From: Tubulanus polymorphus
Lineage: Eukaryota; Nemertea; Palaeonemertea; Tubulaniformes; Tubulanidae
Assembly: GCF_964204645.1 (NCBI RefSeq)
Contig: NC_134028.1
Span: forward strand, 15,425,263 to 15,489,262
Length of the DNA stretch: 64,000 nucleotides
Direction of reading: 5' to 3'
The notes beneath the pieces were generated by a model. It ran no database searches. It worked only from the letters and a program-made list of their open reading frames with translations, and had not been told where the DNA came from. Position 1 is the stretch's first letter. Each line of letters begins with the position of its first letter. This document shows positions 6,112 through 44,593 of the stretch, in pieces. The position numbers and the translations under genes were made by a program.

Positions 6112-7395
6112 TTAACACGTTAGAATTCTTTTCATAATCACATTCTCTTTTGTTTCTTCTCTTTTGATCTTTAGATATTCATCTAAATTACAACCATATG
6201 CGACTGTATGAATTCCGTCATCTAAAATATATCTTTATCATCAAATGGATTCAAACTAACCTTTTCAAATTCTTCAATAAACATCTCGTGATCTTCTGAT
6301 CTTAAACATTTCATCTTATGTTTTCTAACTTCTTCATTGAATATACAATTGATATAATCTTTGAAATGAATATTTTTTTCTACTACACTTTTAGTAATTC
6401 TTTTTAACTTTTTAGCTTCATGTTCTTTAGTTTTATATGAATACATTTTAGATCTAATACCAATGAATTCTATCATTTCTTCACCGCCTAATTCATCCTT
6501 TAACTTCCCGGGCCGCTTTTTATTATCATTACTAAACAATTCATGATTTTTAGGATAGTTACTAAAATCAAAATGATGTTTTAATGTTTTTAAATCATCA
6601 GTTATGTTTTTATCTTTAATATGTAAGAATCTGTATCAAAATATAATATTTCTATATGTTTTTCTCCAAAAAGTGGTTGTAATACATTATAATAGAATTC
6701 ATACATCAATAGCTTTGATATTTCTAAAACTGAAGCACCAACATAGATTGGTTTATTAAATTTCATAGAAGTTCTTCTCATTTTAACTGCAGCTAAATTT
6801 TTATCCAGTATTCTGTTACCTATAAATTTAGGATATGTTTGTAAATGCCTTATTCTTTTACCATTACTAACTAACTCAATATCATTTCTATTTCTAATAT
6901 TTTCACAAGTCTTACCATAGAATACATTATTCATTAGTTTGAAAAAATCTTTCTCAAAATAACTTTTAGCTTCAGTTCTCTGTTTGGTGTTAAAATCTAT
7001 ATATTTTTCTAACCACTTAGATTTACTGAATGAAATATATCTATGTACTTTTTTTAGGATCATTCCTTGTTTTAGATAAAACTTTAACATTCTATAATGT
7101 ACTACATAATTATATTTATCTTCCTGAGTTACCATTAACTTTTCTGTATGAATATGATTTTCGGGTTTAATTCTTTTTTGATAATTTGATATTCTTCATG
7201 TTTAACAGTTTTATGTTCGGGGCAGTATGCTAGATTTCTAGATTTAAATTTAATATGTTCAGGATATTCTAAATCTACAACAAAGAAGTAACCAGTATCT
7301 GAATCATCTGCAATACCTAGAATTCTTTTCTTCCAATCAAAATTTATCATTATTTTCATGTTGTAAAACTTCACTTATTTCAAATACTCCATAAG
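6112..7395 (-). pseudogene. polB: Polinton protein-primed DNA polymerase B, C-terminal part
   Basis: This fragment covers the palm-to-thumb half, from the residues after YGVF to the stop at 6112-6114. Visible motifs are the K-x6-YG motif region (FFKLMNNVFYGKT) and the catalytic YFDTDSY motif, uninterrupted here. Small deletions break the frame near 7190, near 6590-6600 and near 6235. The gene ends at 7395, where a DNA transposon TIR begins. The protein would replicate the element by protein-primed synthesis; this copy cannot. It provides the intein-free reference sequence for the intein in copy B. Confidence 0.88.
6634..6635 (-). other. Unoccupied intein insertion site in polB
   Basis: The codons for D-T-D-S are contiguous here (minus strand, 6637 down to 6626). 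In copy B an intein-coding segment separates the first D from T-D-S at the same position. Confidence 0.85.
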
Positions 7396-14648: not shown

Positions 14649-15197
14649 TGTAGTGTTCAATTGTGTAATTTGTAACAGTTAATTTTGCTCTAGCTAGTGG
14701 CGCCCTCATGCGGTATTTCTTTGTACTAAAAGTTAAGATGGTATCCATGTGATTGCAATTTTAAGACAGTTTTAGTTTTTACGTTTGTTTCTGCCAAATT
14801 TATGTTAGATCAATCCCAAAACGTCTGTAAGTACATAGCAGAATATCTTCTAAATGTGTATTAATATTCAGTAATCAGTAACTATAGTTTAATGTGCTTT
14901 AAATCAGTCGCGAAAGTTTATTAAATTTAATTATTGAGTACGTGACTTCCGGTAAAGATGGAAGACATTTTTTTTTTTTACTTTCGATATTAATTTCCTA
15001 TTTTGCAATATTCTTATAGTGTAATATTGTTTATTTTATTAGAAACCAACAACAACATATGTAAAGAACAACGACAAGATATGTAAAGAACAACACAAGA
15101 TTAAGTTGATTCAAGAATAAAAAGTCAAAGAGTTGCGTTTAAACCAAGAAGATTGTTGCGTTAAGTTTATTTGCAAGATTCAAGATTGGCAGTTACA
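14649..15197 (+). repeat. 5' LTR of the BEL/Pao element
   Basis: 549 bases with TG...CA ends. Its partner is 20830-21377. It carries a T/A-rich stretch near 14970-15040 that could include the promoter. The long frame that opens inside it (15133) is not the likely protein start. Confidence 0.93.
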
Positions 15198-15219
15198 AAA
15201 GTTTAGACGAAGACTAAAG

Positions 15220-18200
15220 ATGACGGAAGAACTGAAATTGAAGAAAACTACAAGTAAGACAATACAGGAAGAAGATGCTGACTCCACGATTAAGTACGGT
15301 GACCTCACCCGTGACCTTGATGCATCAGACTCAGTAAGTCAGTGTTCAAGTACATCCTCGATACGTTTAAAGCTGTCAGAAGAAGAAGCTACCAGACGTA
15401 GCCTAGAAACTAAGTTGCTGAAAGCCAAAGAACAGCAACAACTTCAGCGAGAAAAATTACGTCTCGAACTTAAACATAAAGAACAGCTCCTAGAGCTCGA
15501 TGCTGCTGCGGCATTGCTACAAATCGAATCAGAACTGGAACAGTCGGCTGTAAGGCAGCATGTATATAACGAAGCAGATTGTGACAACGACGGTGCGCCG
15601 AGATCATCGAAACCAATTCTTAGTTCCAGTCAAACCGAAACAAAGGTGCCGCCACTATCGGCCGAAGCACGTGAGTGGTATCCGCAGAATGTTAACTCAA
15701 GAAGTGACATGAGTAATATGATGTCTTGCGTAGAACAAATGTTTTCGCACCAACAGCAGAGTAATCTTGAATTAACTCTTCCGAAACCAGAGATGCCCAC
15801 TTTCGATGGCAATCCGATCGATTATTACCCGTTCATCTCTGCATATGAAAATCTTATTGCATCGAAAACTCAAAATGCAAGTACACGTTTATATATGTTA
15901 CAACAGTATACGAAGGGTGAAGCCAACGAAGTAGTGAAAGCATTCTTAACCAATGAACCAAATGTTGGTCTCGTCAATGCGCTCGACGCCTTAAAAAGGC
16001 ATTATGGTCAGAATTACCGGATCGCAACTGCGTATATCGACAAGGTTACGAATGGCCCTCCAATACGTTCCGAAGACGGAGCAAGTCTCCAGAAGCTATC
16101 TGTGATATTAAATTCTTGTGCGAATGTCCTAAGTCAAATTGGTTACGTGAGTAAAATAGAGAATCCAGACTTTATGCGTCGTTTGATCTACAGGCTGCCT
16201 TACGACATGCGAAAGAGATGGCGTACGAAAGCAGATTACATCACGAACCTTGAACGAGAAATAACAATATCAGACATCGCTAGTTTTATTGAACATGAAG
16301 CACGAGTTCATACTCATCCGATATTCGGGGACATTAATGACTCGAAAGATAAATCGAAACAGAATCATCCGATAAAAAAGAAAACATTTACTACGAACGC
16401 TGAAGAAATATACTCTAAGGACTCACGAAAGAACTGTGTTTATTGTAGTGAAAATCACTGGCTTGATCAGTGTAAAATATTTTTAGACAAATCAGTTGAA
16501 GATCGTCGTAAGTTTGCTCGTGAAAAGGCGCTATGCTATAATTGTATGAAGATGAAGCACAGAGCTAGGACATGTCGTAGTCAAGCATCGTGTCGTACAT
16601 GTGGCAAACGCCATCATAGTCTGCTGCATACAGAACAGCCTCCACCCGTGAAGAATGCTTTTGTAAGAAATCCAGTTCCTGGAACAGTAAAGTTACCTAT
16701 AGTACCAGTTTTGCTGAAAGCTAATGATTGTCAGCTAACAACGTACGCGCTACTCGACAGCGGCTCAACAGTTTCATTCTGTACCGAGAGCTTGATAGAT
16801 CGTCTTAAAATTCCTGCTGAGTATAAACGCTATCAGCTGAGCACTTTAGGAAGGGTTGAGACTGTTGAGTGTCGGGAAATATCAATCAATGCCTATAGTT
16901 TGGATGGGTGCAGTTCTCTTCAGCTGCGGAACATGCTATCTACACCGTCCTTACCAGTCTCGAAGAATGACATGGTATGTCAAGACGAAGTCAACAAGTG
17001 GCCCCACCTGGATGGCGTTACAGTCTCAAACATCGACTCTCGTGTGGAGCTGCTGATAGGTAACGACAATCCAGCTGCATTGGAACCAATAGAAGTACGG
17101 AAACCGGCTAACAGCAACGGTCCATTTGCTGTACGTACACAGTTCGGCTGGACAGTATATGGTACAGCCCAGCCATATGAAGTGATCAACAAAGGTTCAG
17201 TTAATCTAGTCAAAGGCAGCGATGATGAACTTAATCAGAGATTCCGTGAATTCTGCAATCGTGAATTCAGCGACGCATTTACTGATGCTTCAGCTATGTC
17301 AGTGGATGACAAGAAAGCTCTCTCAGCGATCGAGAGTACAGCTGTTATGAGAGAAAATCATTACGAGGTAGGGTTACCATGGAAATACCCTCCTTCAGAA
17401 TTGGTCAACAATAGAGTTATGGCCGAACACAGATTGAATCTACTGAAGGGTCGTCTCCTAAAAAATGAAGAATTACAAGCTAAGTATACAAAATATATTG
17501 ATCGTCTGTTGGAGCTCGGATTCGCCGAACAAGTCCCAGTTGAAGAAGTTGTATCGCCATATGTCTGGTACTTGCCTCACCACCCAGTATGGCATCCGCG
17601 GAAACCAGACAAGCTTAGAGTGGTATTCGACTGTTCAGCTAAATATCAGGGTAGATCACTAAACGACATGCTGTATCAGGGACCAGATCTCACTAATTCC
17701 TTGATTGGTGTATTAAGTCGCTTCCGACAGGAACATGTCGCATTCATTGGAGACATAGAGAGCATGTTTCACCAGGTGAATGTTGAAGAACGAGATCGAA
17801 ACGCGTTACGCTTCCTGTGGTGGCCAGACCACGATATTGAACAGCCACCTATTGACCACCGTATGAAGGTTCACATCTTCGGAGCAGCCTCATCACCAAG
17901 TGTTTGTAACTATGCTCTACATAGGACAGCAGACGACAACAGAGCGGACTTCGCCGCAGATATAGTTGAAACGGTACATCGAAATTTTTACGTGGACGAT
18001 TGTCTCAGGTCTGTGGAATCGTCTCAAGCTGCCACAACAATGATCAATCAGTTAAGCTGTCTATTGTCAAGAGGTGGATTTCGACTGACTAAGTTTGCTT
18101 CAAATTCGAGAGAAGTTGTCGAACATATTCCACCAGAAGAACGAGCACCCCCTCTGCGCGAATTGGGTGATCATGATCTGCCTGGTGACCGCGTCCTCGG

Positions 18201-20615
18201 CGTCTGGTGGGACATGGAAACTGATACGTTACGTTTTAAAGTGAATATTAAGCCACAACCTGTTACTCGACGTGGGATGTTGTCTGTAGTCAGTGCTATT
18301 TACGATCCGCTCGGACTTGCTTCGCCATTACTGCTACCAGCGAAGGTCATATCTCAACACCTGTGTAAGTCCGGACTAGGTTGGGATGACAAAGTACCCG
18401 CGAATTATGAACGTGAGTGGAGTAATTGGCTGCAAGACCTACCCCTGCTGGAAGAGTTCTCAGTCCCAAGATGTATTAGACCTGCTAATTTTGGTCGCGC
18501 GACTTCAACACAGCTTCATCATTTTGCAGACGCATCTGAGAAAGGATTCGGTGCAGTTTCATACGTACGTCTTATTAATGAAAATGGGCACATACATTCT
18601 GCATTCTTAGCGTCAAGGTCGAGATTGGCCCCACTCAAGGTGATGTCAATACCACGTCTCGAGCTGTCTGCAGCAGTATTAGCAGTGAAACTAGATCGTA
18701 TGCTTCGCGAAGAACTCGACCTGGATATCGACAACTCCACATTCTGGTCCGACAGCCGAAGTACATCAGCAATACGAGTAGTCGTTTCAAGGTATTCGTC
18801 GCAAACAGGTTATCAATTATCCAAGAAGGTTCAAATCCAGAGCAATGGAGATACATACCGGGGGTTTTAAACCCAGCCGATGAAGTCTCTCGAGGACTCA
18901 CTGCTCAGCAATTCCTGCAAAATGACAGATGGGTTGCTGGGCCAGAGTTTCTACGAAAACAAGAAAGCGAATGGCCTCGACAAGAATTCGGAAATCACGA
19001 TGTATCAATAGAAGATACAGAAGTTAAAAAGACATTTGTTTCAAAGGACTTGGAAATCAACTCATCGTCAACCAGCGTGCTGCTAAACATAGCAGATAGA
19101 TCTTCAACGTGGCATAAGGCCAAAATTGTAGCGGCGTTGGTTATGCGTTTTATAGCAAGACTGAAACAATCTGTCTCTAAACGGAAGGGACTAAATACTG
19201 CAGCTCAAGGTACCGCATACAAACATATAACTGTACCCGAATTGAGAGCTGCCGAAAGCGCCATTGTTGAAGCTGTACAGCGTAAAGTTTACGGTAAAGA
19301 AATGGAAAGACTGGAGCAGAACAGAACGACAGATAGACGTAAATATCGCAAATTCGTTAAGAAGACTAGTGTACTTCGGCGTCTAAACCCCATAGTGGTA
19401 AATGGACAGCTGAGAGTTGGTGGACGTCTGTCTTACTCAACAGTGAACGAGGACCAGAAGCATCCTTTAATACTTCCACCAAATGAACATGTAACTAAGC
19501 TTATTATCCGCCATTACCATCGTTATAGGGCTGGACATTCCGGTCGAAACCACGTTCTGTCACTTGTACGCGAGAAGTATTGGATAGTCCACGGTATGTC
19601 AGCAGTATATCGTATTCTGAGGGACTGCATTGACTGCAAAAAGAGACAAGGTCTTCCAGGTCAACAAATGATGGCGGACTTACCACCTGAAAGGCTAGTC
19701 GCTGATAAACCGCCTTTTTCGAACGTCGGAATTGATTATTTTGGTCCGTATTTGGTAAAGATCGGCAGAAGTCAAGTAAAGCGATATGGCTGTATTTTTA
19801 CCTGTATGTCATCGCGAGCAGTCCACTTGGAAATCGCTAATTCTATGGACACCTCTGCGTTCATAAATGCTCTGAGACGTTTCATAGCCAGGAGGGGCAA
19901 CCCGGAGTGTATAAGAAGTGATAATGGAACCAACTTTACTGGAGCTCAACGAGAATTACGTGATTCAATAGCTGGGTGGAACCAGGAGAAAATCGAAGGA
20001 TTCATGCTCCAGCGCGAAATTACGTGGGAATTTAATCCGCCAAGTGGATCGCACTTCGGTGGCGTATGGGAGCGTTGCATAAGAACAGTTCGAAAGGTGC
20101 TTAATGCGTTGTTAAGCCAACAAGTGTTAAACGACGAGAATTTGTCCACTCTTATGTGCGAAGTGGAATCTGTAATTAACTCGCGTCCACTTACCGCGAT
20201 TTCTGGAGATGTCAGTGACTTACAGGCCCTAACGCCTAATCATATCTTGCTCTTGCGCGCCGGAGGCACCATGCCGCCAGGTGTCTTTAAACCTACTGAT
20301 ATGTATATAAAGAGAAAGTGGCGTCAAGTACAGTATCTTGCCAATACGTTTTGGCGACGTTGGGTTAAAGAGTATTTGCCTGTGTTACAGGAGCGCCAGC
20401 GATGGCAAAAGCCGAGCGTCAATTTTAGCGTTGGTGACATTGTTTTAGTGATGGACCACACACTCCCTAGGTGTTGTTGGCCGCTAGGCCGAGTTATTAG
20501 CGTACATCCGGGAAAGGACAATAAAGTCAGGGTTGTTACCTTGAAGACAAGGTCGCAAAATTCTCTTGTACGCCCAGTTGATAAACTTGTGCACCTCGAG
20601 TGTGTACATAAGTAA
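15220..20615 (+). pseudogene. gag-pol: BEL/Pao Gag-Pol polyprotein with one frameshift
   Basis: The start is placed at MTEELKLKK (15220), just after the LTR. Domains in order: a charged coiled-coil Gag N-terminus; the Gag DUF1759-type region (LPKPEMPTFDGNPIDYY); Cys/His knuckles (CVYCSENHWLDQC, CYNCMKMKHRARTC, CRTCGKRHH); an aspartic protease (ALLDSGSTVSFC, about 16750); and reverse transcriptase with FYVDDCL (about 17987). RNase H follows (HHFADASEKGFGAV, SIPRLELSAAV, FWSDSRS), then integrase with its HHCC finger (19510-19640) and DDE residues (GIDYFGPY, RSDNGTNF, GGVWERCIRT), and a C-terminal DUF5641-like region. The frame shifts between about 18755 and 18777, at the end of RNase H. Everything else is open, so length and domain order are those of a full BEL element. 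Confidence 0.93.
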
Positions 20616-20813
20616 CTTTGTAACAATTTGTATTAATTTGTAATTTTAAAGAGCGTAAACAGAATTTCTTAAGATAAGCCTATAGTGGTTTAATGTTAAG
20701 CTGGTTATGTGATGTTTTTTGATAATTTTGTAGTTTGTAGTACTAAGGTTTTTTGGTTTTATAAGCATAAGGCTAGTTTTTTAAATTTTTTGTTTTAAGC
20801 GCCCTACGTGCCC

Positions 20814-20829
20814 TTAAGGAGGTGGGTGA
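20814..20829 (+). promoter_or_regulatory. Polypurine tract of the BEL element
   Basis: The purine-rich run AAGGAGGTGGGTGA directly abuts the 3' LTR. It is the expected primer site for plus-strand DNA synthesis. Confidence 0.7.
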
Positions 20830-21377
20830 TGTAGTGTTCAATTGTGTAATTTGTAACAGTTAATTTTGCTCTAGCTAGTGGCGCCCTCATGCGGTATTTC
20901 TTTGTACTAAAAGTTAAGATGGTATCCATGTGATTGCAATTTTAAGACAGTTTTAGTTTTTACGTTTGTTTCTGCCAAATTTATGTTAGATCAATCCCAA
21001 AACGTCTGTAAGTACATAGCAGAATATCTTCTAAATGTGTATTAATATTCAGTAATCAGTAACTATAGTTTAATGTGTTTAAATCAGTCGCGAAAGTTTA
21101 TTAAATTTAATTATTGAGTACGTGACTTCCGGTAAAGATGGAAGACATTTTTTTTTTTTACTTTCGATATTAATTTCCTATGTTGCAATATTCTTATAGT
21201 GTAATATTGTTTATTTTATTAGAAACCAACAACAACATATGTAAAGAACAACGACAAGATATGTCAAGAACAACACAAGATTAAGTTGATTCAAGAATAA
21301 AAAGTCAAAGAGTTGCGTTTAAACCAAGAAGATTGTTGCGTTAAGTTTATTTGCAAGATTCAAGATTGGCAGTTACA
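20830..21377 (+). repeat. 3' LTR of the BEL/Pao element
   Basis: 548 bases, matching 14649-15197 apart from three visible differences. It is followed by the target duplication CGTAA. Confidence 0.93.
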
Positions 21378-21817: not shown

Positions 21818-22684
21818 CACAATTACCGGTAACAGAACAAACGCAAGAGCCAGTGCCAGTAACCAAATGTTTCAAAGGTATTATCTTATTATTTACTATG
21901 TATTTATCAGTAAATTATCCATATCATACTCGAAGCATTTCAAAAAATCTTTTATCTGTTTCTTTGGTGTTTTAAATTTTTTTCAGGTGATTACAGTCTT
22001 GCTGAACTGAATTCCGAAATTGAAAGTATCCCTGACATGAAAATAACAATAAAAGATGACAGTCGTGTTTTCGTCTGCGATGAAGTTTTGGAAAAGATTG
22101 ACTTCAATTCACTTGAAGGCAACAACTGGCTTAATGATAAGGTACTCGCTTTGGGACTTAGTGTATTGGGATTCAAGTACCGGTAGATTATTGATGATTT
22201 ATATAAGTCTTAGTCCAATCTTTCATTTCAGATTATCAATAGTTATCTCAGTCTGCTTATGGAGGAAAGAAATAAAGAAGATAATCATCACATATTGGTG
22301 CTTACATCATATCTTGCAGTTTTATGGAATCGTCCAAATATGTGGCTTTATAAGAAGGTATTTTCTAATGAGAAAAAAAAGTTTAATAAAAGACTGTGGT
22401 GAATCGTATAATATATCAACTTGTATGTAATCACAAATGATAAGCTTATTACCATTAATTTTCATCATTGAGTTCACTAGGAATGCTTTATAAAATGTAT
22501 TCGTGATCCTGTATTTCGATGTCACAATTTCAGATTAAGATGTCGGTGTATGATTGGATATTTGTTCCAATAAATGTTCGTGACAGTCATTGGGTACTTT
22601 TAGCAGCTAATGTTTCTGAAAAACTGTATCTGTTTTGGATCCATTGTCATCAAAGCAGAATTTTACCCTTATAGATAAGTGGAG
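21818..22684 (+). pseudogene. Ulp1-like (C48) cysteine protease exons of the MULE-type gene, 3' truncated
   Basis: Four exons have consensus splice sites: 21818-21877, 21987-22141, 22232-22357 and 22534-22684. They encode a Ulp1-like N-terminal region (FNSLEGNNWLNDK, IINSYLSLLMEER), a W-rich segment (LWNRPNMWLYKK) and the catalytic His (NVRDSHWVLLAA, His at 22588). The expected Asp segment (LDPLSS) appears in a shifted frame after about 22628. The catalytic Cys would lie further downstream. That part is missing because Polinton copy B begins at about 22801, within the following intron. Ulp1 domains joined to transposases are known from some MULE and KDZ elements; cleavage of SUMO-type substrates is the family activity, not shown here. 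Confidence 0.65.
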
Positions 22685-22800
22685 GTATGTGCATTCATTT
22701 GAAATCATTCACCTGTTGGTGCTGTTTGATAGTAGACAATAGAAATTATTGTCACCAAACTATACAAATATATATTCATTTTTTATTTGTTTATACTAGA

Positions 22801-25800
22801 AAGTTTAGAGGCGCAGCGCATGAGAAATGTAACTTACAAGCTAAGAAAATTAATTTTGTACCAGTTATATTTCATAATCTATCAGGATATGACGCACATT
22901 TATTTATCAAACAGTTATGTTATAAGATAGAAGAAATCAATAATGAAATAGAAAGATTAAATTCAAATAGATCAAAAGCTAAAATACCAACTTATAAATT
23001 TAGAATGTTAGCTAAAACATCTGAGAATTATATATCATTCCAATTTGGGTGTTTAAGATTTATAGATTCATATAGATTTTTAAACAGTTCATTAGATAAC
23101 TTATCAAAATCATTAGTTGATGATGAATTAAAAATATTAAAACAACACTACCCAAATAATGATGATTTCCAATTAATGAGATATAAAGGAGCAATTCCAT
23201 ATTCTTTCTATAAAAATCATAATGATTTTAACATAACTGAATTATTAAAAGAACAATTCTATGATGAATTAAAAAATGAATATGTTAAAGATGAAGTATA
23301 TAATAGAACATTGAATATTTGGAATCATTTCAAAATAGAAAATCATGGGCAATTAGTAGATTTATATTTAAAATCAGATGTATTATTATTAACTGATATA
23401 TTCGAAAGGTTTAGAGATGTAAACCTAAAATATTTTAACATTGATCCTTGTCATTGTTATTCTAGCCCAGGTTTAACATGGGATTGTGGATTAAAATTTA
23501 CAGATATAAAAATGGATTTGTTAACAAATATAGATCAATTATTATTATTTGAAAAATCTATAAGAGGAGGAGTTTCAGGTGTATTAGGTGATAGATATTT
23601 CAATGTAAATGATAACCCCGGATATAAGTTATTATATATAGATGCAAATAATTTGTATGGTTGGGCAATGATGGAACCACAACCTTATGGAGTATTTGAA
23701 TTAACTGAAGTTTTACAGAATGAAAATAATGATAAATTTGATTGGAAGAAAAGAATCCTAGATATTGCAGATGATTCAGATACTGGTTACTTCTTTGTTG
23801 TAGATTTAGAATATCCTGAAGATAAAAAATTTAAATCTAGAAATCTAGCTTACTGTCCCGAACATAAAACTGTAACTCATGAAGAATTATCAAATTATCA
23901 AAAAAGAACTAAACCCGAAAATCATATTCATACAGAAAAGTTAATGGTAACTCAAGAAGATAAATATAATTATGTAGTACATTATAGAATGTTAAAGTTT
24001 TATTTGAATCAAGGAATGATTCTAAAAAAAGTACATAGATATATTTCATTTAGTCAATCTAAGTGGTTAGAAAAATATATAGATTTTAACACCAAACAGA
24101 GAACTGAAGCTAAAACTGATTTCGAGAAAGATTTCTTCAAGTTAATGAAAAATGCATTCTATGGTAAGACTTGTGAAAATATTAGAAATAGAAATGATAT
24201 TGAGTTAGTTAGTAATGGCAAAAGGATAAGGCATTTACAATCATATCCTAAGTTTTTAGGTAACAGAATATTTGATGAAAATTTAGCTGCAGTTAAGATG
24301 AGAAGAACATCAATGAAATTTAATAAAACAATCTATGTTGGCGCTTCAGTTTTAGAATTATCAAAATTACTAATGTATGAATTTTATTATAACATATTAC
24401 AACCACTTTTTGGAGAAAAACATATAGAAATACTATATTTTGATTCTGTAACAGCTGACCCCCTAATATTTTTAAAATATAATAATCACATGTTAATTAG
24501 AAGAATTTCAGAAATAATTCAAAAACAAAATGAATGTTATATTTCGTATGGTGAAAAAGAATTAATACAAATAAATGGATTAATGGATGTTTGGACAAAA
24601 AATGGATTGGTGAAATTAAAGAATATAATTAGACATAAAACGAATAAGAAAATCTATAGAGTTAGAACTAAATTAGGATTTGTTGATGTTACTGAAGATC
24701 ATAGTTTAATTAAACAAAATGGTGATGAAATAAAACCAACTGATATAAAAATTGGAGATGAATTATTACATAAAAGATTTTACCCAAGAATGAATCATAT
24801 GTCATTTGATAAAATAATTGATAATATTTATAATATAGAACCCGAAACATTGGAAGAAAAAGAATATTTTATCAAAGGATTTTTTATGGGTGATGGTTCA
24901 GCAGGTGTGTATAAATATGTTAGTGGAACTAAATATTGTTGGTATTTATGCAATCAAGATTTGAAATTATTAGAAAGAATTAAAAAATACTGTGAACAAG
25001 TTTATTCACATAAAACATTTAGAATCGGGGATTATATGAAATCATCACAATGTTATAGAATACATGTGAATAATACTAAAGATTTTGCAATTAAATATAA
25101 TGATGAATTCTATATTCATGCAATAGTGAAAAGTAATACTTCAACTAAAGAAAAGATAGTTCCAGATTATGTAATAAATGCAAAAGATAATTTAAGAAAA
25201 TGGTTCTTCATTGGATTTTATACTGCAGATGGTTCAAAAAACTATACAAAACAAAAACTATATCTTTGACACAAAAAGGAAAAGTTGCTGTATCAGGATT
25301 AAATATATTATGCAATTCATTAGGATTTAATATGTTAGTTAATATAAGAAAGGATACACCAAATGTATTTCAATTAACGCATGTAGAAAATGTACTAACT
25401 GAAGAAGCCAGAGATTTATTTGAAATATCCAATCATACAGAATATGTTTATGATTTAACAACTGAAGATGGTACATTTAATTGTGGATTTCCATTAATCA
25501 TAAAAATACAGATTCTTACATATTAAAGATAAAAACTGATAACATAACAGATTATTTAAAAACATTAAAACATCATTTTGATTTTAGTAACTATCCTAAA
25601 GATCATGAATTGTTTAGCAATGATAATAAAAAAGTTCCAGGGAAGTTTAAGGATGAATTAGGTGGTGAAGAAATGATAGAGTTCATAGGTATTAGATCTA
25701 AAATGTATTCATATAAAACTAAAGAACATGAAGCTAAAAAGTTAAAAGGAATAACCAAAAGTGTAGTAGAAAAGAATATTCATTTCAAAGATTACATCAA

Positions 25801-26037
25801 TTGTATATTCAAAGAAGAAGTTAGAAAACATAAGATGAGATGTTTAAGATCTGAAGATCATGAAATGTTTATTGAAGAAATTGAAAAGATAAGTTTGAAT
25901 CCATTTGATGATAAAACATATATTCTGGATAATGGAATTCATACAGTTGCTTATGGTTTCAATTTAGATGAATACTTAAAATTTAAAAGAGAAGAAACAA
26001 AAGAGAACGAGATAATGAAAAGAATTCTAACGTGTTA
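22801..26037 (+). pseudogene. polB: Polinton DNA polymerase B, N-truncated, intein-containing
   Basis: It starts inside the gene. Motifs in order: FHNLSGYDAHLFIK of the exonuclease domain, DANNLYGWAMM (palm motif A), the K-x6-YG region (FFKLMKNAFYGKT) and YFD at 24436-24444. There an intein-coding segment begins. The gene resumes at T-D-S-Y (25508) and runs to the stop at 26036-26038. Apart from the intein the retained polymerase is largely uninterrupted. Both visible frameshifts fall inside the intein, near 25250 and near 25490-25505. The enzyme class is the protein-primed family B polymerase typical of Polintons. Confidence 0.92.
24445..25507 (+). other. Intein with LAGLIDADG homing endonuclease inside polB
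   Basis: About 354 codons interrupt the catalytic motif between D and T-D-S. The N-terminal splicing residue is Ser (SVTADPLIFLK, block A). Block B is VDVTEDHSL with its Thr and His. Two LAGLIDADG helices are visible (YFIKGFFMGDGSAG and WFFIGFYTADGSK). Block F reads YVYDLTTEDGTFNCG. The C-terminal residue is Asn (25505-25507), and the following Thr is the expected +1 nucleophile. The residue before Asn is Lys rather than the usual His. Single-base shifts near 25250 and 25490-25505, both at A-runs, break the frame. They may be decay or homopolymer sequencing errors. An active form would excise itself from the polymerase and spread by cutting intein-free genes. Confidence 0.93.
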
Positions 26038-26435: not shown

Positions 26436-27193
26436 ATGGTAGAATTAAAAGAATACAGATTATTTGTTGATTCAAGAAAACTTACAAATTATAAATCTCA
26501 TAATTTACTAGTACAATTAGATAGAGAATTTAAGAATTCTGTAGATTTAAAATTAGTTAATATAAGTTTATGTAATTCTTTTTACAATATATCGGATAAA
26601 ACTATTGAAGATAATACTGTTTTAATTCATATTAGAAATATGGATAAATGGTATCATCTATTTCTAAGACCAGGATTATATAATTTAGATACATTAGCGC
26701 AGGAAATTAATAGAAGAGCTCGGTTGAAAATGGGTGCATCTGCTGGATTTGGATTAAAACTGATTAAAAGTGATAGCTCCGATAAAATAAGAATAAAATT
26801 AGGTAATGAAGATCAACATGCATTTATGGTAAAAAACCTATAGCTAAATTGCTAGGAATTGCACCAGATATTGTTACAGGAAACATAGATGGTAATTCAA
26901 ACTTAATACCTTACACGCACTTTTATATTTATTGCAATTTAATTGATCCTACAAAAACTTTCGAAGCAATTAAAGAAACAATTTGTAGTTCTAGTATACT
27001 AAATATTTTACCACTAAAAAATGTTAAACAATTTGGAACTCAAATAAATTATAATTTAACAGAATGTGATTTTAAACCTTGCATTCCACATTTCAATAAT
27101 TTCAAATTAGAAATAAGAAATCATAATGGTTATTTAATTGATTTGAATAACTTTCCTGTGATATATGAATTAGTTATAAGATGTAGAGAGTAA
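26436..27193 (+). pseudogene. Putative minor capsid (penton) protein, frameshifted
   Basis: It is collinear with the intact gene at 4945-5703. One base is lost in the A-run near 26830-26835. This ends the first frame after AFMVKNL and puts the second half (26849-27193) in another frame. Both halves are otherwise open. Confidence 0.55.
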
Positions 27194-27212
27194 TTTTTTC
27201 ACTATATAAATG
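27194..27212 (+). promoter_or_regulatory. T-tract plus ATAAATG start signal, representative
   Basis: Between the stop of one late gene and the next ATG lies only a run of T's followed by a TATATAAATG-type motif. The same layout (T-run, then ATATAAATG, AAATAAATG or ATAATAAATG) precedes the genes starting at 26068, 26436, 27567, 27813, 28255, 28706, 31602, 33077 and 34349, and their copy A and C counterparts. It also precedes the minus-strand genes starting at 38903 and 39821. It resembles TAAATG-type late promoters of large DNA viruses. The T-run may in addition end the preceding transcript. Confidence 0.55.
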
Positions 27213-27566
27213 AATATAACTGTTGGACCGAGTATATGTTTTGGGTTTGATTTTAAACGTGAGAAAGAAATAAAATTTAACATTACTGATGTAATTACAC
27301 ATATCAAAAATATTACATTTTCTAATGAAACAACATTTGAGTATGAAACAACAATAGATAAAGAAACTTTTAATGTAGAAAAGATTACTAATTTAATTAG
27401 AGAATCTTTAAGATTTTATGAATTAGATGAAGATTTTATCATCGATGATATTAAAAAAATAATAATTGAAATATATACAAATGAAACTAGTAATGAAATA
27501 AATGTTGAATTAATCATCACTAAGATAACTAAATATTTTGAAGATAGTAATTTTTTTGATAAATAA
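27210..27566 (+). CDS. Polinton late protein of unknown function, 118 aa
   Basis: This is the full-length form (MNITVGPSICFGF...KYFEDSNFFDK) of the acidic, helix-rich protein also found at 4584. No membrane segment or known motif. Its TAA is immediately followed by the ATG of the 73-aa gene. Confidence 0.7.
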   Translation: MNITVGPSICFGFDFKREKEIKFNITDVITHIKNITFSNETTFEYETTIDKETFNVEKITNLIRESLRFYELDEDFIIDDIKKIIIEIYTNETSNEINVELIITKITKYFEDSNFFDK

Positions 27567-27788
27567 ATGAGTGATAATAAGTGGATAATAACTGGATTAT
27601 ATAATGGCGCATTACTATCAGTTGGAACTGTTGGTTATTCAATGGTATTAAAAAAAGTATTCAAAATGGGAAGTGTTAATGTTGATAGATTTGATATAAA
27701 TGATATCTTAAAATTAACATTAGCAGTTACTCTATCTAATTTAACTATTGATTATTTAGAAAAACAAAAATATATACCTCCCATATAA
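27567..27788 (+). CDS. Polinton 73-aa late membrane-associated protein
   Basis: Intact. The N-terminus is hydrophobic and Gly-rich (ITGLYNGALLSVGTVGYSMVL), followed by a basic patch (KKVFKMG). A helical segment with a conserved D-x-L-K-L-T motif follows, ending QKYIPPI. It resembles a short protein seen in many animal Polintons, role unknown. It is identical at the protein level to the copies at 29143 and 45926, unusual among otherwise decaying genes. Confidence 0.7.
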   Translation: MSDNKWIITGLYNGALLSVGTVGYSMVLKKVFKMGSVNVDRFDINDILKLTLAVTLSNLTIDYLEKQKYIPPI

Positions 27789-27812
27789 ATGCATAATTAT
27801 TTTGCTAAATAA

Positions 27813-28235
27813 ATGGCTTCTGCAATTATAACTATTATAGGATCGGCAATTGTTAACGCTTTAGCATTTACTGGTGGTGGATATTTATTTAAGCATATTG
27901 ATAAAAATGGTTCATTAACAGAACAAAAAAGACATAACTTAGCATTAGAGAAATACAATAAAGCAGCAGAAGAATACAGAGAAAAACGACAAAACTATAT
28001 GGATTACATCAATAAAGAATTATATGATCAGAAGATTTCACATAGAGATTTTCAATCAGTTGATGATGCAATGAGTTTATATAACGCGGTAACCAATAAA
28101 GAAAAATTACATCTATACAAACCTAAATTATCAGATTATTATACCCCAAGTAAAGAACAACAGAAATATGAAATAATTTGGATTTTAGGTGGAACTGTTA
28201 TTGTTATATTTGTAGCATATAAATTTACTAATTAG
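27813..28235 (+). CDS. Polinton late membrane protein, 140 aa
   Basis: An intact equivalent of the gene at 3917-4339. It has an N-terminal hydrophobic segment, a charged helical centre (QKISHRDFQSVDDAM) and a C-terminal anchor (GGTVIVIFVAYKFTN). It is the undamaged first member of the tandem pair; the second, at 29389, is frameshifted. Confidence 0.75.
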   Translation: MASAIITIIGSAIVNALAFTGGGYLFKHIDKNGSLTEQKRHNLALEKYNKAAEEYREKRQNYMDYINKELYDQKISHRDFQSVDDAMSLYNAVTNKEKLHLYKPKLSDYYTPSKEQQKYEIIWILGGTVIVIFVAYKFTN

Positions 28236-28254
28236 TAATTTTTTTTCTAAATAA

Positions 28255-28689
28255 ATGGAAGATAAAGTTGATAATATTGATATTATTCCTCATGATATAA
28301 ATAAAACTAAATTAAAAACATATTTAGAAAAACAAATATTAGAATTTGAAAGTGACTTAAAGATAAAAAAGAAAAAATATTTAAAACGTAAAATTATATA
28401 TTATTTGATTATAAGTGGTTCGGTTACAATTAGTTCTGTAATTACATTTCTAGCAATATTCAGTCCATTAACACCTTTAGCTATATCAATTGGTGTATTA
28501 GGATTAAGTTCAAGTGTTTTAACTGGTATAAGTTCAAAATTAAATATAAAAAGTAATAAAGAAAAAATTAAAACTAATATAAAAGAAATTAATAAATTAA
28601 AGAATACACTAGATTATATAATAAGTTTAAATGGCCATATAACAGTTAAAGAACAAGATAAATTATTAAAAGAATTAGTTAATTATTAA
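28255..28689 (+). CDS. Polinton two-segment membrane protein, 144 aa
   Basis: Intact. The N-terminal half is a Lys-rich amphipathic helix (FESDLKIKKKKYLKRK). A long hydrophobic region of two segments follows (YYLIISGSVTISSVITFLAI and PLTPLAISIGVLGLSS), then an amphipathic C-terminal helix with KLKNTLDYIISLNGHIT. The layout recurs in animal Polintons. The function is unknown; a membrane or virion role is inferred from topology. Confidence 0.72.
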   Translation: MEDKVDNIDIIPHDINKTKLKTYLEKQILEFESDLKIKKKKYLKRKIIYYLIISGSVTISSVITFLAIFSPLTPLAISIGVLGLSSSVLTGISSKLNIKSNKEKIKTNIKEINKLKNTLDYIISLNGHITVKEQDKLLKELVNY

Positions 28690-28705
28690 TTTTTTTATTA
28701 TATAA

Positions 28706-28747
28706 ATGGGGTTTCCAAAAGCTTTCCAATATAATAAATCAATAAGA
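28706..28747 (+). pseudogene. Truncated start of the conserved late protein at the duplication junction
   Basis: The first 13 codons (MGFPKAFQYNKSI) are followed by a jump into the duplicated end of the minor capsid gene. The complete gene is at 30274. Confidence 0.85.
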
Positions 28748-28785
28748 TGTTATAAGATGTAGAGAGTAATTTTTTCACTATATAA

Positions 28786-29142
28786 ATGAATATAACTGTT
28801 GGACCGAGTATATGTTTTGGGTTTGATTTTAAACGTGAGAAAGAAATAAAATTTAACATTACTGATGTAATTACACATATCAAAAATATTACATTTTCTA
28901 ATGAAACAACATTTGAGTATGAAACAACAATAGATAAAGAAACTTTAAATGTAGAAAAGATTACTAATTTAATTAGAGAATCTTTAAGATTTTATGAATT
29001 AGATGAAGATTTTATCATCGATGATATTAAAAAAATAATAATTGAAATATATACAAATGAAACTAGTAATGAAATAAATGTTGAATTAATCATCACTAAG
29101 ATAACTAAATATTTTGAAGATAGTAATTTTTTTGATAAATAA
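28786..29142 (+). CDS. Duplicate of the 118-aa late protein
   Basis: It is the second member of the tandem duplication of 27210-27566, with one visible residue change (Phe to Leu near position 53). Intact. Confidence 0.7.
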   Translation: MNITVGPSICFGFDFKREKEIKFNITDVITHIKNITFSNETTFEYETTIDKETLNVEKITNLIRESLRFYELDEDFIIDDIKKIIIEIYTNETSNEINVELIITKITKYFEDSNFFDK

Positions 29143-29364
29143 ATGAGTGATAATAAGTGGATAATAACTGGATTATATAATGGCGCATTACTATCAGTTG
29201 GAACTGTTGGTTATTCAATGGTATTAAAAAAAGTATTCAAAATGGGAAGTGTTAATGTTGATAGATTTGATATAAATGATATCTTAAAATTAACATTAGC
29301 AGTTACTTTATCTAATTTAACTATTGATTATTTAGAAAAACAAAAATATATACCTCCCATATAA
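29143..29364 (+). CDS. Duplicate of the 73-aa late protein
   Basis: Protein sequence is identical to 27567-27788, with a synonymous change in the DNA. Confidence 0.7.
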   Translation: MSDNKWIITGLYNGALLSVGTVGYSMVLKKVFKMGSVNVDRFDINDILKLTLAVTLSNLTIDYLEKQKYIPPI

Positions 29365-29388
29365 ATGCATAATTTTTTTGCTAAATAA

Positions 29389-29803
29389 ATGGCTTCTGCA
29401 CTTATAACTATTATAGGATCGGCAATTGTTAACGCTTTAGCATTTACTGGTGGTGGATATTTATTTAAGCATATTGATAAAAATGGTTCATTAACAGAAC
29501 AAAAAAGACATAACTTAGCATTAGAGAAATACAATAAAGCAGCAGAAGAATACAGAGAAAAACTATATGGATTACATCAATAAAGAATTATATGATCAGA
29601 AGATTTCACATAGAGATTTTCAATCAGTTGATGATGCAATGAGTTTATATAACGCGGTAACCAATAAAGAAAAATTACATCTATACAAACCTAAATTATC
29701 AGATTATTATACCCCAATTAAAGAACAACAGAAATATGAAATAATTTGGATTTTAGGTGGAACTGTTATTGTTATATTTGTAGCATATAAATTTACTAAT
29801 TAG
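29389..29803 (+). pseudogene. Duplicate of the 140-aa membrane protein, 8-bp deletion
   Basis: Loss of eight bases after the codons for EEYREK (about 29563) shifts the frame and gives a 64-residue product. The downstream part (29567-29803) is open in another frame. Confidence 0.85.
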
Positions 29804-29822
29804 TAATTTTTTTTCTAAATAA

Positions 29823-30257
29823 ATGGAAGATAAAGTTGATAATATTGATATTATTCCTCATGATATAAATAAAACTAAATTAAAAACATATTTAGAAAAA
29901 CAAATATTAGAATTTGAAAGTGACTTAAAGATAAAAAAGAAAAAATATTTAAAAAGTAAAATTATATGTTATTTGATTATAAGTGGTTCGGTTACAATTA
30001 GTTCTGTAATTACATTTCTAGCAATATTCAGTCCATTAACACCTTTAGCTATATCAATTGGTGTATTAGGATTAAGTTCAAGTGTTTTAACTGGTATAAG
30101 TTCAAAATTGAATATAAAAAGTAATAAAGAAAAAATTAAAACTAATATAAAAGAAATTAATAAATTAAAGAATACACTAGATTATATAATAAGTTTAAAT
30201 GACCATATAACAGTTGAAGAACAAGATAAATTATTAACAGAATTAGTTAATTATTAA
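29823..30257 (+). CDS. Duplicate of the two-segment membrane protein
   Basis: 144 codons, intact, differing from 28255-28689 by a few substitutions. Confidence 0.7.
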   Translation: MEDKVDNIDIIPHDINKTKLKTYLEKQILEFESDLKIKKKKYLKSKIICYLIISGSVTISSVITFLAIFSPLTPLAISIGVLGLSSSVLTGISSKLNIKSNKEKIKTNIKEINKLKNTLDYIISLNDHITVEEQDKLLTELVNY

Positions 30258-33076: not shown

Positions 33077-34316
33077 ATGAGTGGGAGTTATATAAGTCCT
33101 TCTAAGATTTCTAGAATATCTAATGCTATTAAAGCAGAAAGATCACATCATATAATTACTCATAACCCTTCTAATATTAATCCCGATGAAACTTTATACG
33201 TCAGAATCCCTCGATTAACACAAAATACTTTTTATGCTCCAAATAGTATTTATTTATCAGCCGATATAAAAGTTACTGGTCATGATAATAATTATGTTGT
33301 CGATAATATTGGGAAATATTTGATTAAAAAGTTAACTATAAAGATTGGTCCAGAAACAGTTTTCTCATTAGATGATTATAATTTATTTATGCATTATAAA
33401 GATTTATGGTTAACTAAAGAAAATAGAAATAATATGATATTTCAAGGAATCCAATCAGAAAACCAAAATAAATTAAGATCAGAAGCACATAATGCAATAT
33501 TAACTAATTCTATAGATAAATTGATAAAAAGTATATATGGAAGCAAATATAAAATTCCATTAGACTTTGAATTGATAAATACTAATGCACCTTTATAAAT
33601 ACGCAATTCAAGATGTTATATTCGAAATAATATTTGCTCCTGTTAATGAAATTGTAATATCTAGCGTTAATAAAGATATGTGTTATAAATTATCGAATAT
33701 ATGTTTAGAATATGATACAGTAACTGATGAAAATATTTCAAGTATAATTCAAACTCATTACAATAAAGGATTTTCATTATTATATGTTTATATTGATAAA
33801 TTTAAAACTGTAACTATTAATGCAAATGATGAAATTATTAATGAGAATAACTTCCCAAGAAGATCTATTAAAGGTATATTAATATTTTTTACCATTGCAA
33901 CATATACTAATGGTGCAATAAATGTTGATAATTATTATAATCCTGAAATAACAAAAGTAGAAATAACTATCGAAGGAATAGCAAATAAAATATTTTGTCA
34001 AGGAATGAGAATGATTGATCAATGGCCAGAAATTAGAAAACATTTTATGAATGAAAAAGTAAAATCATCTGAAAATTGTAATATTAATCAAATTGATTAT
34101 TATACCGGTAATAAATATGCATTATGGTTAGATTTTAGAACAACAGAGGATAATTCATTACATGGTTCTGGAAAAAAATTACAAAACACTAAAGATGGAA
34201 TACAATCATTCATGACAAAGAATAAAGGAATCAAAAATTTCAAAATGCACATTTATATTATATCTGACGCACAATTAAATATTGTAAATTCACAATTAGA
34301 TAGTGTTACGTATTAA
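33077..34316 (+). pseudogene. MCP: Polinton major capsid protein, one frameshift
   Basis: Two overlapping frames (33077-33598 and 33585-34316) make one capsid gene of about 412 codons. Loss of two bases near 33592, and of one codon shortly after, breaks it. Conserved segments include YVRIPRLTQNTFY, FSLDDYNLFMHYKDLW, FPRRSIKGILIFF, PEITKVEITIEGIANKIF and a C-terminal NFKMHIYIISDAQLNIV. This is the most complete capsid gene here, with copy C. Identification as the double jelly-roll capsid protein is by family resemblance and gene order. Confidence 0.75.
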
Positions 34317-36188: not shown

Positions 36189-36800
36189 TTATTTTATAAA
36201 CTTATATTCATAAGGAAATTGTAGTCTCAGTAATAATTTTGAACCTTTATTATTCTTTAATTTATTCATATAATCATCATGTAATTCAGTAGGTATAATT
36301 TGATTTTCTTCCAATGATTGTTGCATAGATTTTCTATCTTTGATATAAAATATAACTAGAAATCTTATATTCTCCCTAAAGTCTTTAACAATTGAATTAT
36401 ATTTTTGATTTAAAACCCATGTTGTTATCCCAAAATGTCTCCCAGAGAAAGCTAAGTAACATAACTCACTTTCTCTCACTTTTGAATCATGTAAATTTGC
36501 GCAATCATCTACAATGAATAATGTATTTGATCCATTATAAGTATCAATTGCTATTTTTATACAATTATCTAAATTTTCTTTTACTGTTTTAGGATCTAAT
36601 ATAATAAACTTTTTCATCTTAAATATATCTCTATTATATGTTTTATTCATTTCATAAGTAGGACAGAATAATATTATATTATCAAAATGATTCTTATGAA
36701 TAGTTTCTAACAAATCTAATATGAAATGTGTTTTACCACAATTGGTTACTCCAGTAACTAACATATTATGCGGTTCAAATATAAATAAATCTTTATTCAT
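36189..36800 (-). CDS. Polinton packaging ATPase (FtsK/HerA-A32 type)
   Basis: Intact, 203 codons from the preferred start at 36800 (MNKDLFIFEPHNM). An upstream ATG at 36851 is in frame but lies within the integrase end. Walker A is GVTNCGKTHF (residues about 16-25). Walker B is TLFIVDDCANL (about 96-106), followed by a sensor-like LNQKYNSIVKDFR segment. In Polintons this ATPase pumps DNA into capsids. The start overlaps the integrase stop (ATGAATAA), so the two genes are probably one transcript. Confidence 0.85.
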   Translation of the reverse strand: MNKDLFIFEPHNMLVTGVTNCGKTHFILDLLETIHKNHFDNIILFCPTYEMNKTYNRDIFKMKKFIILDPKTVKENLDNCIKIAIDTYNGSNTLFIVDDCANLHDSKVRESELCYLAFSGRHFGITTWVLNQKYNSIVKDFRENIRFLVIFYIKDRKSMQQSLEENQIIPTELHDDYMNKLKNNKGSKLLLRLQFPYEYKFIK

Positions 36801-37112
36801 GTATTCTTTTAATTTTACTAGATAAAATCCATTCATTAAATTTATCATCATATCCTTTATATTTCACCAAAGAATACTTTTTTCCTTTAAGAGTTTTTGT
36901 TTTCAATACTTTTTCTATTTTGTATTCTATTTCATCTGGATTTGGTACAAGTGATAATTCTTGTTCATAGAAATAACCTAATATTTCTTCATCTTTTAAA
37001 TCTTCTAGTTTATAAACAAATGGTTTTGTTAATATTATCTTTTTAATCTTGAATATTTCTTCTGTAAAATTAGGAGTATAACCTTTATAAAATGTTTTTC
37101 TATATTTAGATA

Positions 37113-37174
37113 TTCTAACGTGTTGTCCTATTTTAAATTTAGGTTCTAACGTGTTGTCCTATTTTAAATTTAGG
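37113..37174 (-). repeat. 31-bp perfect tandem duplication within integrase
   Basis: Two identical 31-base units lie head to tail. Copy C has a single unit (about 53306-53336). Confidence 0.95.
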
Positions 37175-37801
37175 TTCACCGGAATCATGTGTAACAAACG
37201 CTCCATATAAATTATTCCAAACTATTTCTGAATTATCTTCTTTTCTAGCTTGTATAGGTTTCATATTTATAGAACTATGTTTAGAATTATTATAACCTTT
37301 CACTAAATCATCTAATATATCGATATATTTATATGTTTCATTTGCAGTAAAATATTTCCACATTCTAGTTTTCAATGTTTTATTAAATCTTTCTATAATA
37401 GATGCTTTTTTATCTGAATGTGTTGAAAAATAATCTACATCGTTATCAGATAATAGTTTTTTAAAATGTTTGTTATAGAATTCCTTACCTTCATCAAATT
37501 GTATCTTATCTGGAATAGCTTCTTTAAATATAGATTTAAAAGCATTAGTAACTTCTAAACCTGTTTTATTTTTGATTGGTATACTCCATGCGTATCTACT
37601 GAATATGTCTATAACATTTAATATCCAGAAATATCCTTTGTTGTATTCTCCTAAGTTCTTCCTGTCAATTAAATCAGCTTGCCATTGTTGATCAATATAT
37701 GAAACCATAACTTTTCTTGTTAAATAAGTTTTATCCATTTTCTTGTGGATTTGATATGTTGGTTGATTTTGTAACCATGATTTCAATTCACTATATTTTA
37801 T

Positions 37802-37828
37802 ATCACCGTGTGGGTGCCGTATGGCGCC
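37802..37828 (-). repeat. 27-bp palindromic insert in integrase, copy B
   Basis: Same 27-base element as at 2242-2268, with two substitutions that spoil the palindrome. It encodes GAIRHPHGD in frame. Confidence 0.75.
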
Positions 37829-37942
37829 ATTTTCATTATCAGATTTAATTTTACCCCATAATTCTGTAACGTTAGAATATGATACTTCACTTTCTGGGTT
37901 ATAATATAAATCTCTTAAATATTGTTCTTTTTTCATCTTCTT

Positions 37943-41628: not shown

Positions 41629-44593
41629 ATGGAAGATGTAAGAAATTATATTAATTCATTAGATAATAAAAAAGATATAGAGATAACCGAAGCATTTAAA
41701 AGTGATATTGGTCCAGCAGCTATCGAGTTTAAATTTCATAAAGGAAAAACATTAGAAGAAAATAAAAAACATTTAGAAAATATGAAAAATATTATAAAAA
41801 TAAAAACTGATGTTGAATACCCTAAAATTAGTATATCAGTTAAAGTAAAGTTTATAAAATCTGAAGATAAACCAATATATAATATAAATTCTCATTCACA
41901 ACATATTATTTCAAAACAACATATAGATGAAAAATTAGATAAATGTTATAATGAAGTAAAAACTAAAATAGAAGAGAAATATTTTGAAGGATCAGGTTTA
42001 ATATTTGATGAAATAATATTTATGACTTTACATGTTTATAACACAAAATATAATAAGTTAACTAAATCAAAACCAATTGATGAAAATAATTTATCATATT
42101 ATAAAGAACCAGATATTGAAGCATCGAGTTATATTAAACTACCATTTAAAACTAATGCTGTAATAAATGTACAAAATGAAGATGATAAATGTTTTCTATG
42201 GGCTATAATAAGTTGTTTACATCCAGTTGAAGATTATAATAAACATACTTATAGATTAACAAATTATAAACAATTTGAAAATAATTATAAGATAGATAAG
42301 TATCCTGTTATAATTAAAAACATCCCAAAGATAGAAAGAGATAATAATTTAAGAATAAATGTATTTGATTTAATCAAATTACCAAATACAAAAGGTAACA
42401 ACATAAAACATTATACATTAGAACCTTTCTATCTATAAAAAGATTATGATTCAAACGATGTTATAGATATACTATATTATGAGAATCATTATATGTGGAT
42501 TAAACAAATAGATTTATTCTTTAGAACAGAAAGTGATCACCATAATAAAATATATCTATGTAGAAAATATTTACATAAATTCAGTAATGAAAGTACATTA
42601 TTAAATCATAAACAATTATGTGAAAATCATGATTATTGTAAATTAGTTTTACCAAATCAAAAGGATAAAATATTAGAATTCAAAAAATATGATTACAAAA
42701 ATAAAGTACCATTTGTCATATATGGAGATTTTGAATCATTAAATAAAGAACTAACTGATCAAGATAGAAAAGAAATATATTATAAGAGAAAGAAATTAAA
42801 TTCTAATGAAAATGATTATTCTGAAGAACCACCAAAAACAAATACTTTTAAAAAGATTCATCAATCAGCTGCTGCTTTCGGGTTATATATAAAATCTGAT
42901 TATCCAGAACTTATTGAAAGTGAATATTATGATTATAGAAATGAAAATGTTATCAATCATTTTTGTGACTTATTAATTGAATATGAAATAAGATTTAGTA
43001 AATTATTGAATACCAATATAGAAATTATAATGACAGAAGAAGATAAAGAAGAATTTGCGTTTGCAGATAAATGTTATTATTGTGAAAAGATATTTAATTA
43101 TAAAGATAAAAAAGTAAGAGACCATGATCATTTGAATGGAAAGTTTAGAGGCGCTGCACATGAGAATTGTAATTTACAAGCTAAGAAAATTAACTTTGTA
43201 CCAGTTATATTTCATAATCTATCAGGATATGATGCACATTTATTCATCAAACAGTTATGTCATAAAATAGAAGAAATTAATAATGAAATAGAAAGATTAA
43301 ATTCAAATAGATCAAAAGATAAAATACCAACTTATAAATTTAGAATGTTAGCTAAAACATCTGAGAATTATATATCATTCCAATTTGGTTGCCTAAGATT
43401 TATAGATTCATATAGATTTTTAAATAGTTCATTAGATAACTTATCAAAATCATTAGTTGATGATGAATTAAAAATATTAAAGCAACACCATCCAAATAAT
43501 GATGATTTTCAATTAATGAGATATAAAGGCACTATTCCATATTCATTTTATAAATCACATAATGATTTTAATATAACTGAATTATTAAAAGAACAATTCT
43601 ATGATGAATTAAAAAATGAATATGTTAAAGATGAAGTATATAATAGAACATTGAATATTTGGAATCATTTCAAAATAGAAAATCATGGGCAATTAGTAGA
43701 TGTATATTTAAAATCAGATGTATTATTATTAACCGATATATTCGAAAGGTTTAGAGATGTAAACCTAAAATATTTCAATATTGATCCTTGTCATTGTTAT
43801 TCAAGTCCAGGTTTAACATGGGATTGTGGATTAAAATTTACAGATATAAAAATGGATTTGTTAACAAATATAGATCAATTATTATTATTTGAAAAATCTA
43901 TAAGAGGAGGAGTTTCAGGTGTATTAGGTGATAGATATTTCAATGTAAATGATAACCCTGGATATAAGTTATTATATATAGATGCAAATAATTTGTATGG
44001 TTGGACAATGATGGAACCACAACCTTATGGAGTATTTGAATTAACTATTAACTATTAATGATACTGACAGTTACATATTAAAGATAAAAACTAATAACAT
44101 AACTGATGATTTAAAAACATTAAAACATCATTTTGATTTCAGTAATTATCCTAAAGATCATGAATTGTTTAGCAATGATAATAAAAAAGTTCCCGGTAAA
44201 TTCAAAGATGAATTAGGTGGTGAAGAAATGATTGAATTCATCGGTATTAGATCTAAAATGTATTCATATAAAACTAAAGAACATGAAGCTAAAAAGTTAA
44301 AAGGAATAACAAAAAGTGTAGTAGAAAAGAATATTCATTTCAAAGATTACATCAATTGTATATTCAATGAAGAAGTTAGAAAACATAAAATGAGATGTTT
44401 AAGATCTGAAGATAATGAAATGTTTATTGAAGAAATTGAAAAGATAAGTCCAAACCCATTTGATGATAAAAGATATATTTTAGATGATGGAATTCATACA
44501 GTTGCTTATGGTTGTAATTTAGATGAATACTTAAAATTTAAAAGAGAAGAAACAAAAAAGAACGAGATAATGAAAAGAATTCTAACGTGTTAA
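41629..44593 (+). pseudogene. polB: Polinton DNA polymerase B with N-terminus, nonsense codon and internal deletion
   Basis: This is the only copy with its N-terminal region: a charged start, then DDKCFLWAIISCLHPVEDY typical of Polinton polymerases. A TAA at 42436-42438 interrupts it. Next come a Cys/His region (CRKYLHKFSNESTLLNHKQLC), the exonuclease motif FVIYGDFESLN, GYDAHLFIK and DANNLYGWTMM. After FELT (about 44046) some 730 bases of the palm are deleted. The frame shifts, and the gene resumes at DTDSY (44060) and ends at 44593. At the resumed motif D and T-D-S are contiguous, indicating no intein. Confidence 0.9.

Follow-up and report, generated by a model that had tools for sequence, protein, structure and literature searches.

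Does the segment that splits the catalytic motif of a Polinton DNA polymerase in the genome of the nemertean Tubulanus polymorphus represent an intein, and has it spread by homing? The polymerase lies in a window of 64,000 nucleotides (NC_134028.1, positions 15,425,263 to 15,489,262 of the forward strand; coordinates below are those of the window) that contains, in part, three related Polintons, referred to here as copies A, B and C. In copy B, the polymerase is interrupted at positions 24445..25507 of the plus strand. Inteins at the D|TD motif (the PolB-c site) are known in family B DNA polymerases of archaea and large viruses, the Mimivirus PolB being an example. A published survey reports inteins to be absent from animal genomes and viral inteins to be often located in DNA polymerases, with 67 listed (PMC5784728). 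We conclude, with a probability of about 80%, that the segment belongs to a homing intein living as a parasite in a Polinton DNA polymerase, the Polinton being in turn a virus-like resident of an animal genome.

The N-extein of copy B (22675..24444, plus strand) is an open frame of a protein-primed DNA polymerase B (PF03175, E 1.3e-15) that ends in ...EILYFD. The junctions are exact: LYFD ends at 24444, the Ser codon starts at 24445, the terminal Asn codon occupies 25505-25507 and the C-extein (25508..26035, plus strand) begins with TDSYILK at 25508, the insertion point being between D and T of YFD|TDSY. An empty counterpart is provided by copy A, whose polymerase (6234..7195, minus strand) reads LYFD|TDSYILK at 6635|6634; the minus-strand sequence across this junction is LYFDTDSYILKIKT. 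The flanks of copy A at the site are 93% and 92% identical to those of copy B, and its polymerase frame is broken just downstream of the empty site. The polymerase of copy C (42439..44590, plus strand) is deleted across the site; we considered it as a second empty site and rejected it, and left it out of the empty-site count, since the deletion reaches into the motif.

A preliminary description of this locus, made from the sequence alone, had claimed splicing blocks A, B and F, two LAGLIDADG motifs, a starting Ser and a final Asn followed by Thr. All of these are present in the plus-strand translation of 24445..25507. What we take to be block A with Ser1 (SVTADPL) occupies 24445..24465, block B with its TxxH signature (VDVTEDHSL) 24682..24708, LAGLIDADG motif 1 (IKGFFMGDGS) 24871..24900, motif 2 (FIGFYTADGS) 25207..25236, block F (VYDLTTEDGTFNCG) 25446..25487 and block G, with the terminal Asn, 25488..25507. 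Profile searches bear out the claimed similarity in part. The N-terminal 274 amino acids matched TIGR01445 intein_Nterm, in support of block A (26.3 bits, cut-off 24.5), and Pfam LAGLIDADG_3 (22.6, cut-off 22.5), both above threshold; the match to Intein_splicing had an E value of 5.8e-5 but, at 23.4 bits, stayed below the cut-off of 35.8, and the C-terminal piece alone matched nothing in Pfam or NCBIfam. Exact junctions, motifs and profile matches together uphold the central claim of that description, an intein with a LAGLIDADG endonuclease at D|TDS of a Polinton polymerase.

Absent from the preliminary account is a frameshift: the insert is 1063 nt long, which is no multiple of three. The N-extein frame runs into a stop codon at 25267-25269; what follows, block F included, is read in a second frame, and block G shares the C-extein frame. 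The first frameshift zone is located approximately at 25240..25247 (plus strand), as the intein of a relative, P0018, aligns to copy B through 25239 and resumes at 25248 in a different frame; the second falls within block G. With the upstream frame closed at 25269 and blocks F and G in different frames, the copy B intein is unable to splice. Judged from its sequence, it is a frameshifted pseudogene, a dead member of one Polinton subfamily.

Open members were found elsewhere in the genome assembly (268 Mb, 77 contigs). Matches to the intein number at least 141, spread over contigs C1-C12 and some smaller contigs; this is a lower bound, with 141 of 546 candidates scored. Open frames of 1686-1690 amino acids are present at 11 of these matches. 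There are 111 matches to PF03175, about 67 of which were judged to be of the window polymerase type; 44 of these (L009-L052), taken mostly by score, were read, and about 23 were left out. The same insertion, which the preliminary description had proposed to look for in other Polinton polymerases, occupies 43 of the 44 loci, L038 being the sole empty one. The N-terminal junction is identical in all 43 occupied loci and the C-terminal junction is readable in 39; with copy A and L038 empty, the insertion is exact and has empty alleles. The commonest insert length is 1065 nt (18/44). Eighteen occupied loci are open through the site, a full-length intein (1065 or 1056 nt) and into the C-extein, and in 14 of them the upstream N-extein frame likewise continues for 590 codons or more, or as far as the stretch read extends; L019 was rejected as a further open copy, its intein being partial. 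A second, diverged Polinton polymerase family of the same genome (L001-L007) has an uninterrupted DTD in 7/7 loci and no intein match; no DTD was seen in L008. A search with the empty copy L038 retrieved 5792 relatives at E 1e-5 or better; among the 120 listed, 119 have a contiguous DTD and one shows neither state, a listing in which empty relatives are favoured because the query spanned the empty site.

Synonymous divergence (dS) was compared over 37 rows for the N-extein, 28 for the intein and 31 for the C-extein; the window copies are among them, and short or broken-frame loci were left out. Between copy B and 25 main-family copies, the N-extein has a median dS of 1.042 and the first 258 intein codons one of 0.209; C-extein values against copy B are 1.2-2.4 where computable. 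Within the main family (300 pairs), the medians are alike (0.134 for the N-extein and 0.142 for the intein), so intein codons are not just slower to change. The step is located at the N-terminal junction, with dS of 1.0 in the last 20 extein codons and 0.17 in the first 20 intein codons, values based on few sites (11 and 13). At the level of identity, the main family matches copy B at 80-82% over the N-extein and at about 90% over the intein. In extein trees, copies A, B and C are separate from 34 main-family rows; in the intein tree, copy B groups with L012 (96/83). Between the subfamilies, dS is about 0.2 for the intein and about 1 for the polymerase, which indicates that the intein moved without the polymerase. 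Three further loci of the window type, L053-L055, the closest to copy B among the scored genome matches, are all occupied and are 95-97% identical to it in the intein and 94-97% in the N-extein. The economical reading of these comparisons would be a single intein transfer between two subfamilies, in either direction, followed by common descent. A separate tract was noticed in L017, where a stretch (approximately -300 to -180 before the site) of a main-family polymerase is about 87-92% identical to copy B, other copies being lower there; recombination between the two Polinton subfamilies is a possible source of this tract.

Diversity around the site is graded. Among the 18 open copies, the proportion of synonymous differences is 0.03 at codons -160 to -120, climbs by way of 0.18 and 0.25 and reaches 0.42 adjoining the site; past it, the values fall from 0.25 through 0.15 to 0.08, followed by 0.11 and 0.11. 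Compared with the occupied L046, the empty copy L038 is 93-100% (mostly 98-100%) identical further upstream; identity is 87-95% over the last 360 nt ahead of the site and 90-95% over the 120 nt that follow it; the post-site tract of L038 is less distinct against other copies (87-98%). We infer that the diversity peak and the L038 tracts would agree with conversion tracts that have the insertion point at their centre, in either direction, of the kind expected after repair of a cut by an endonuclease. In extein trees, L038 falls among occupied copies; it may either have lost the intein precisely or have retained its old flanks as conversion changed those of other copies.

A homing intein would act as follows. 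An open copy would be translated into a single polymerase chain of about 1690 amino acids, from which the Hint domain would excise itself by means of Ser1, the block B TxxH, the terminal Asn and Thr+1, restoring the active-site motif YFDTDSY or YFDTDAY. Where a polymerase gene has an empty D|T site, the LAGLIDADG domain would cut it there, and the intein would be copied in during repair templated by an occupied gene. A wider proposal is that this is a natural homing drive in an animal nuclear genome, one that swept the Polintons of this species, is selected for splicing and cutting, crosses subfamilies and brings about gene conversion in polymerase genes throughout the chromosomes; it might also cross host species, since related inteins are present in other assemblies. 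We regard this proposal as tentative, the odds being somewhat against it.

Several of the same observations could be produced by a true intein whose endonuclease is irrelevant and which multiplies with Polinton transposition, having crossed subfamilies by recombination or template switching. Polintons are multicopy in this genome, the intein and N-extein identities between copy B and L053-L055 are similar, as under common descent after one entry, and the conversion-like tract of L017 is away from the intein boundary. Such a passenger would hardly be expected to show a synonymous switch at the N-terminal splice junction and not in homologous flank, diversity graded and centred on the site, both LAGLIDADG Asp residues kept in most of the 43 occupied copies, or an intein dN/dS of 0.25. 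We consider this explanation unlikely.

The same 43 copies bear on splicing. Ser1 is kept in 42 of them and TEDHSL of block B in 41; FF[ML]GDGS of LAGLIDADG motif 1 is kept in 40 and the Asp of motif 2 in 39. Asn|Thr is found at 36 of 37 readable C-terminal ends, with Asp at the remaining one; six of the 43 ends were unread by the script. In the predicted structure of a relative, P0005, the full horseshoe-shaped Hint splicing fold is present, and I-DmoI is among its Foldseek matches; comparison of structures was needed because sequence matches of P0005 in PDB are weak (best E 0.0034, to the TFIIB mini-intein). This conservation speaks against a nuclease insertion that is only intein-like and either remains within the polymerase or inactivates it, as does the dN/dS of 0.10 in an N-extein whose catalytic motif is interrupted. 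In favour of such a non-splicing insert, frameshifts recur near block G. The residue before the terminal Asn points the same way: it is usually His in inteins, though His is not a defining feature, but among the 36 copies whose N|T end could be read it is Lys in 27, Val in 4, Phe in 4 and Ala in 1. Lys alone is no argument against splicing, since it is common in relatives (His 35, Lys 32, others 13; n = 80); copies with Val, Phe or Ala may be impaired. Overall, we find a non-splicing insert improbable.

Two observations concern the C-terminus of the intein itself. The last three residues differ among L009-L052 (QKN, AVN, AKN, CFN, AFN, AAN), which is variable for a splice junction. In addition, L009, L026, L028, L033 and L051 have a common frame-shifting change near the end (PINPKN|TD), where the window copy is broken too; this break in block G would reflect either a position prone to slippage or a break that was inherited and multiplied as copies were made.

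An assembly chimera, which the preliminary description had named as fatal to its reading, or contamination with viral DNA can be dismissed for all practical purposes; no observation spoke for it, and against it stand the number and distribution of the intein matches, the same-family polymerase sequence that flanks the intein in 43 of 44 loci, and the Pao retroelement and THAP domain in the same window.

Several points weigh against a homing intein. The window copy is frameshifted, and only 18 of 43 occupied loci are open across the intein, 14 of them also upstream as checked and one lacking Ser1. No penultimate His was seen in the 36 copies with readable ends. Splicing and DNA cleavage are predicted activities. 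In the last 80 intein codons, dS between copy B and the main family is 0.58, above the rest of the intein and below the exteins; the intein end is more diverged within the main family as well (0.31), and the raised dS there suggests mosaic intein C-termini. With L053-L055 occupied, the transfer may be one old event, and the empty site of L038 may be a loss. Synonymous diversity is also high in a far bin (0.249 at -360 to -320), and recombination between co-replicating Polintons could spread the intein without a nuclease.

To place the homing intein among its relatives, we used a tree that included 39 of the 91 rows P0020-P0110. Rows P0003, P0008, P0012, P0036, P0038, P0053, P0061 (short or odd), P0097, P0108 and P0110 were left out, and P0007, P0010, P0011, P0013, P0014 and P0015 were also outside it. 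The Polinton inteins (n = 9) form a single clade (100/99) nested in a group of 28 same-site inteins, the remainder of which are in PF00136 polymerases (95/94). The nearest row, P0022 (82/92), is in a phage-type polymerase that is closest to cyanophage and Pelagibacter phage polymerases (about 29-30%). The suggested affinity with giant-virus inteins finds partial support in the nesting among same-site PolB inteins; the nearest row is phage-type and the set has no named giant-virus intein. Scans of viral contigs found no related locus; in a phage collection, P0005 matched two records at 24-27% identity and P0028 matched weakly (best 26% over 32%). P0016-P0019 have no PF03175 match; they were assigned to Polinton polymerases on the strength of flanks that share 44-46% identity with copy B over 85-100 amino acids.

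Copy A extends from the window start to about 7.2 kb (minus strand), copy B over about 22-40 kb (plus strand) and copy C over about 41-56 kb. Besides PF03175 polymerase, copy B contains the other two members of the Polinton/Maverick trio, a retrovirus-type integrase (rve; 37142..37942, minus strand, PF00665, E 6.5e-10) and an A32-like packaging ATPase (36189..36863, minus strand, PF04665, E 2.1e-12), all three above cut-off. The N-terminal part of a major-capsid-like protein (33077..33595, plus strand) matched Capsid_N weakly (PF16903, E 5.8e-4, 19.9 bits, below the cut-off of 24), and the next frame (33582-34313) had no profile match. No inverted repeat spanning the element was found among the 25 longest of 35 in 20900-41600. 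Inside copy B, a segment of about 1.57 kb that holds small genes is directly duplicated almost without change (27173-28748 / 28749-30257). Between copies A and B there is a Pao-type retroelement (14898-21377; Peptidase_A17, E 2.7e-46) with 300-nt direct repeats, 99% identical, at its ends; THAP and ALS2CR8 domains were also detected. The assignment of the genome to an animal is based on these domains, the Pao element and three matches to 7tm_6, the family of insect odorant receptors (27-36 bits, cut-off 25.8). A small minus-strand Polinton gene (39150-39821 / 55484-55999) looks HNH endonuclease-like by eye (HIDHVLPIS...NLRAL); a Pfam search of 39153-39821 gave no match at E 0.01. A coding frame of copy C has a 24-nt tandem repeat array (51243-51423).

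The nested system of an intein inside a virus-like element inside an animal shares the D|TD site with PolB-c inteins of viruses and archaea, but its host is the protein-primed (PF03175) polymerase of an animal Polinton, and the Polinton inteins form a clade of their own; the finding links Polintons to the pool of PolB-site inteins. HNH and VSR domains have reportedly been found inserted in Polinton polymerases (Jeong et al. 2023). The present insertion is likewise a nuclease domain in such a polymerase, and differs in combining LAGLIDADG with Hint, in having empty sites, in the many copies compared and in the evidence of transfer. Krupovic et al. (2024), citing Jeong et al., report that polinton polymerases carry inserted homing-endonuclease domains of diverse kinds, and suggest invasions by inteins (PMC11071308). 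The novelty surmised in the preliminary description is narrowed by such known insertions; we found no LAGLIDADG intein described in an animal Polinton, in a search that took in few subscription papers or preprints. It is rare for a single assembly to offer both occupied and empty alleles, host subfamilies that have diverged and copies by the dozen, a combination that makes homing, loss and decay measurable. Among the inteins of eukaryotic viruses and fungi treated in the survey (PMC5784728), the viral ones likewise often reside in DNA polymerases, whereas the intein described here is integrated, at high copy number, in a nuclear genome of animal type.
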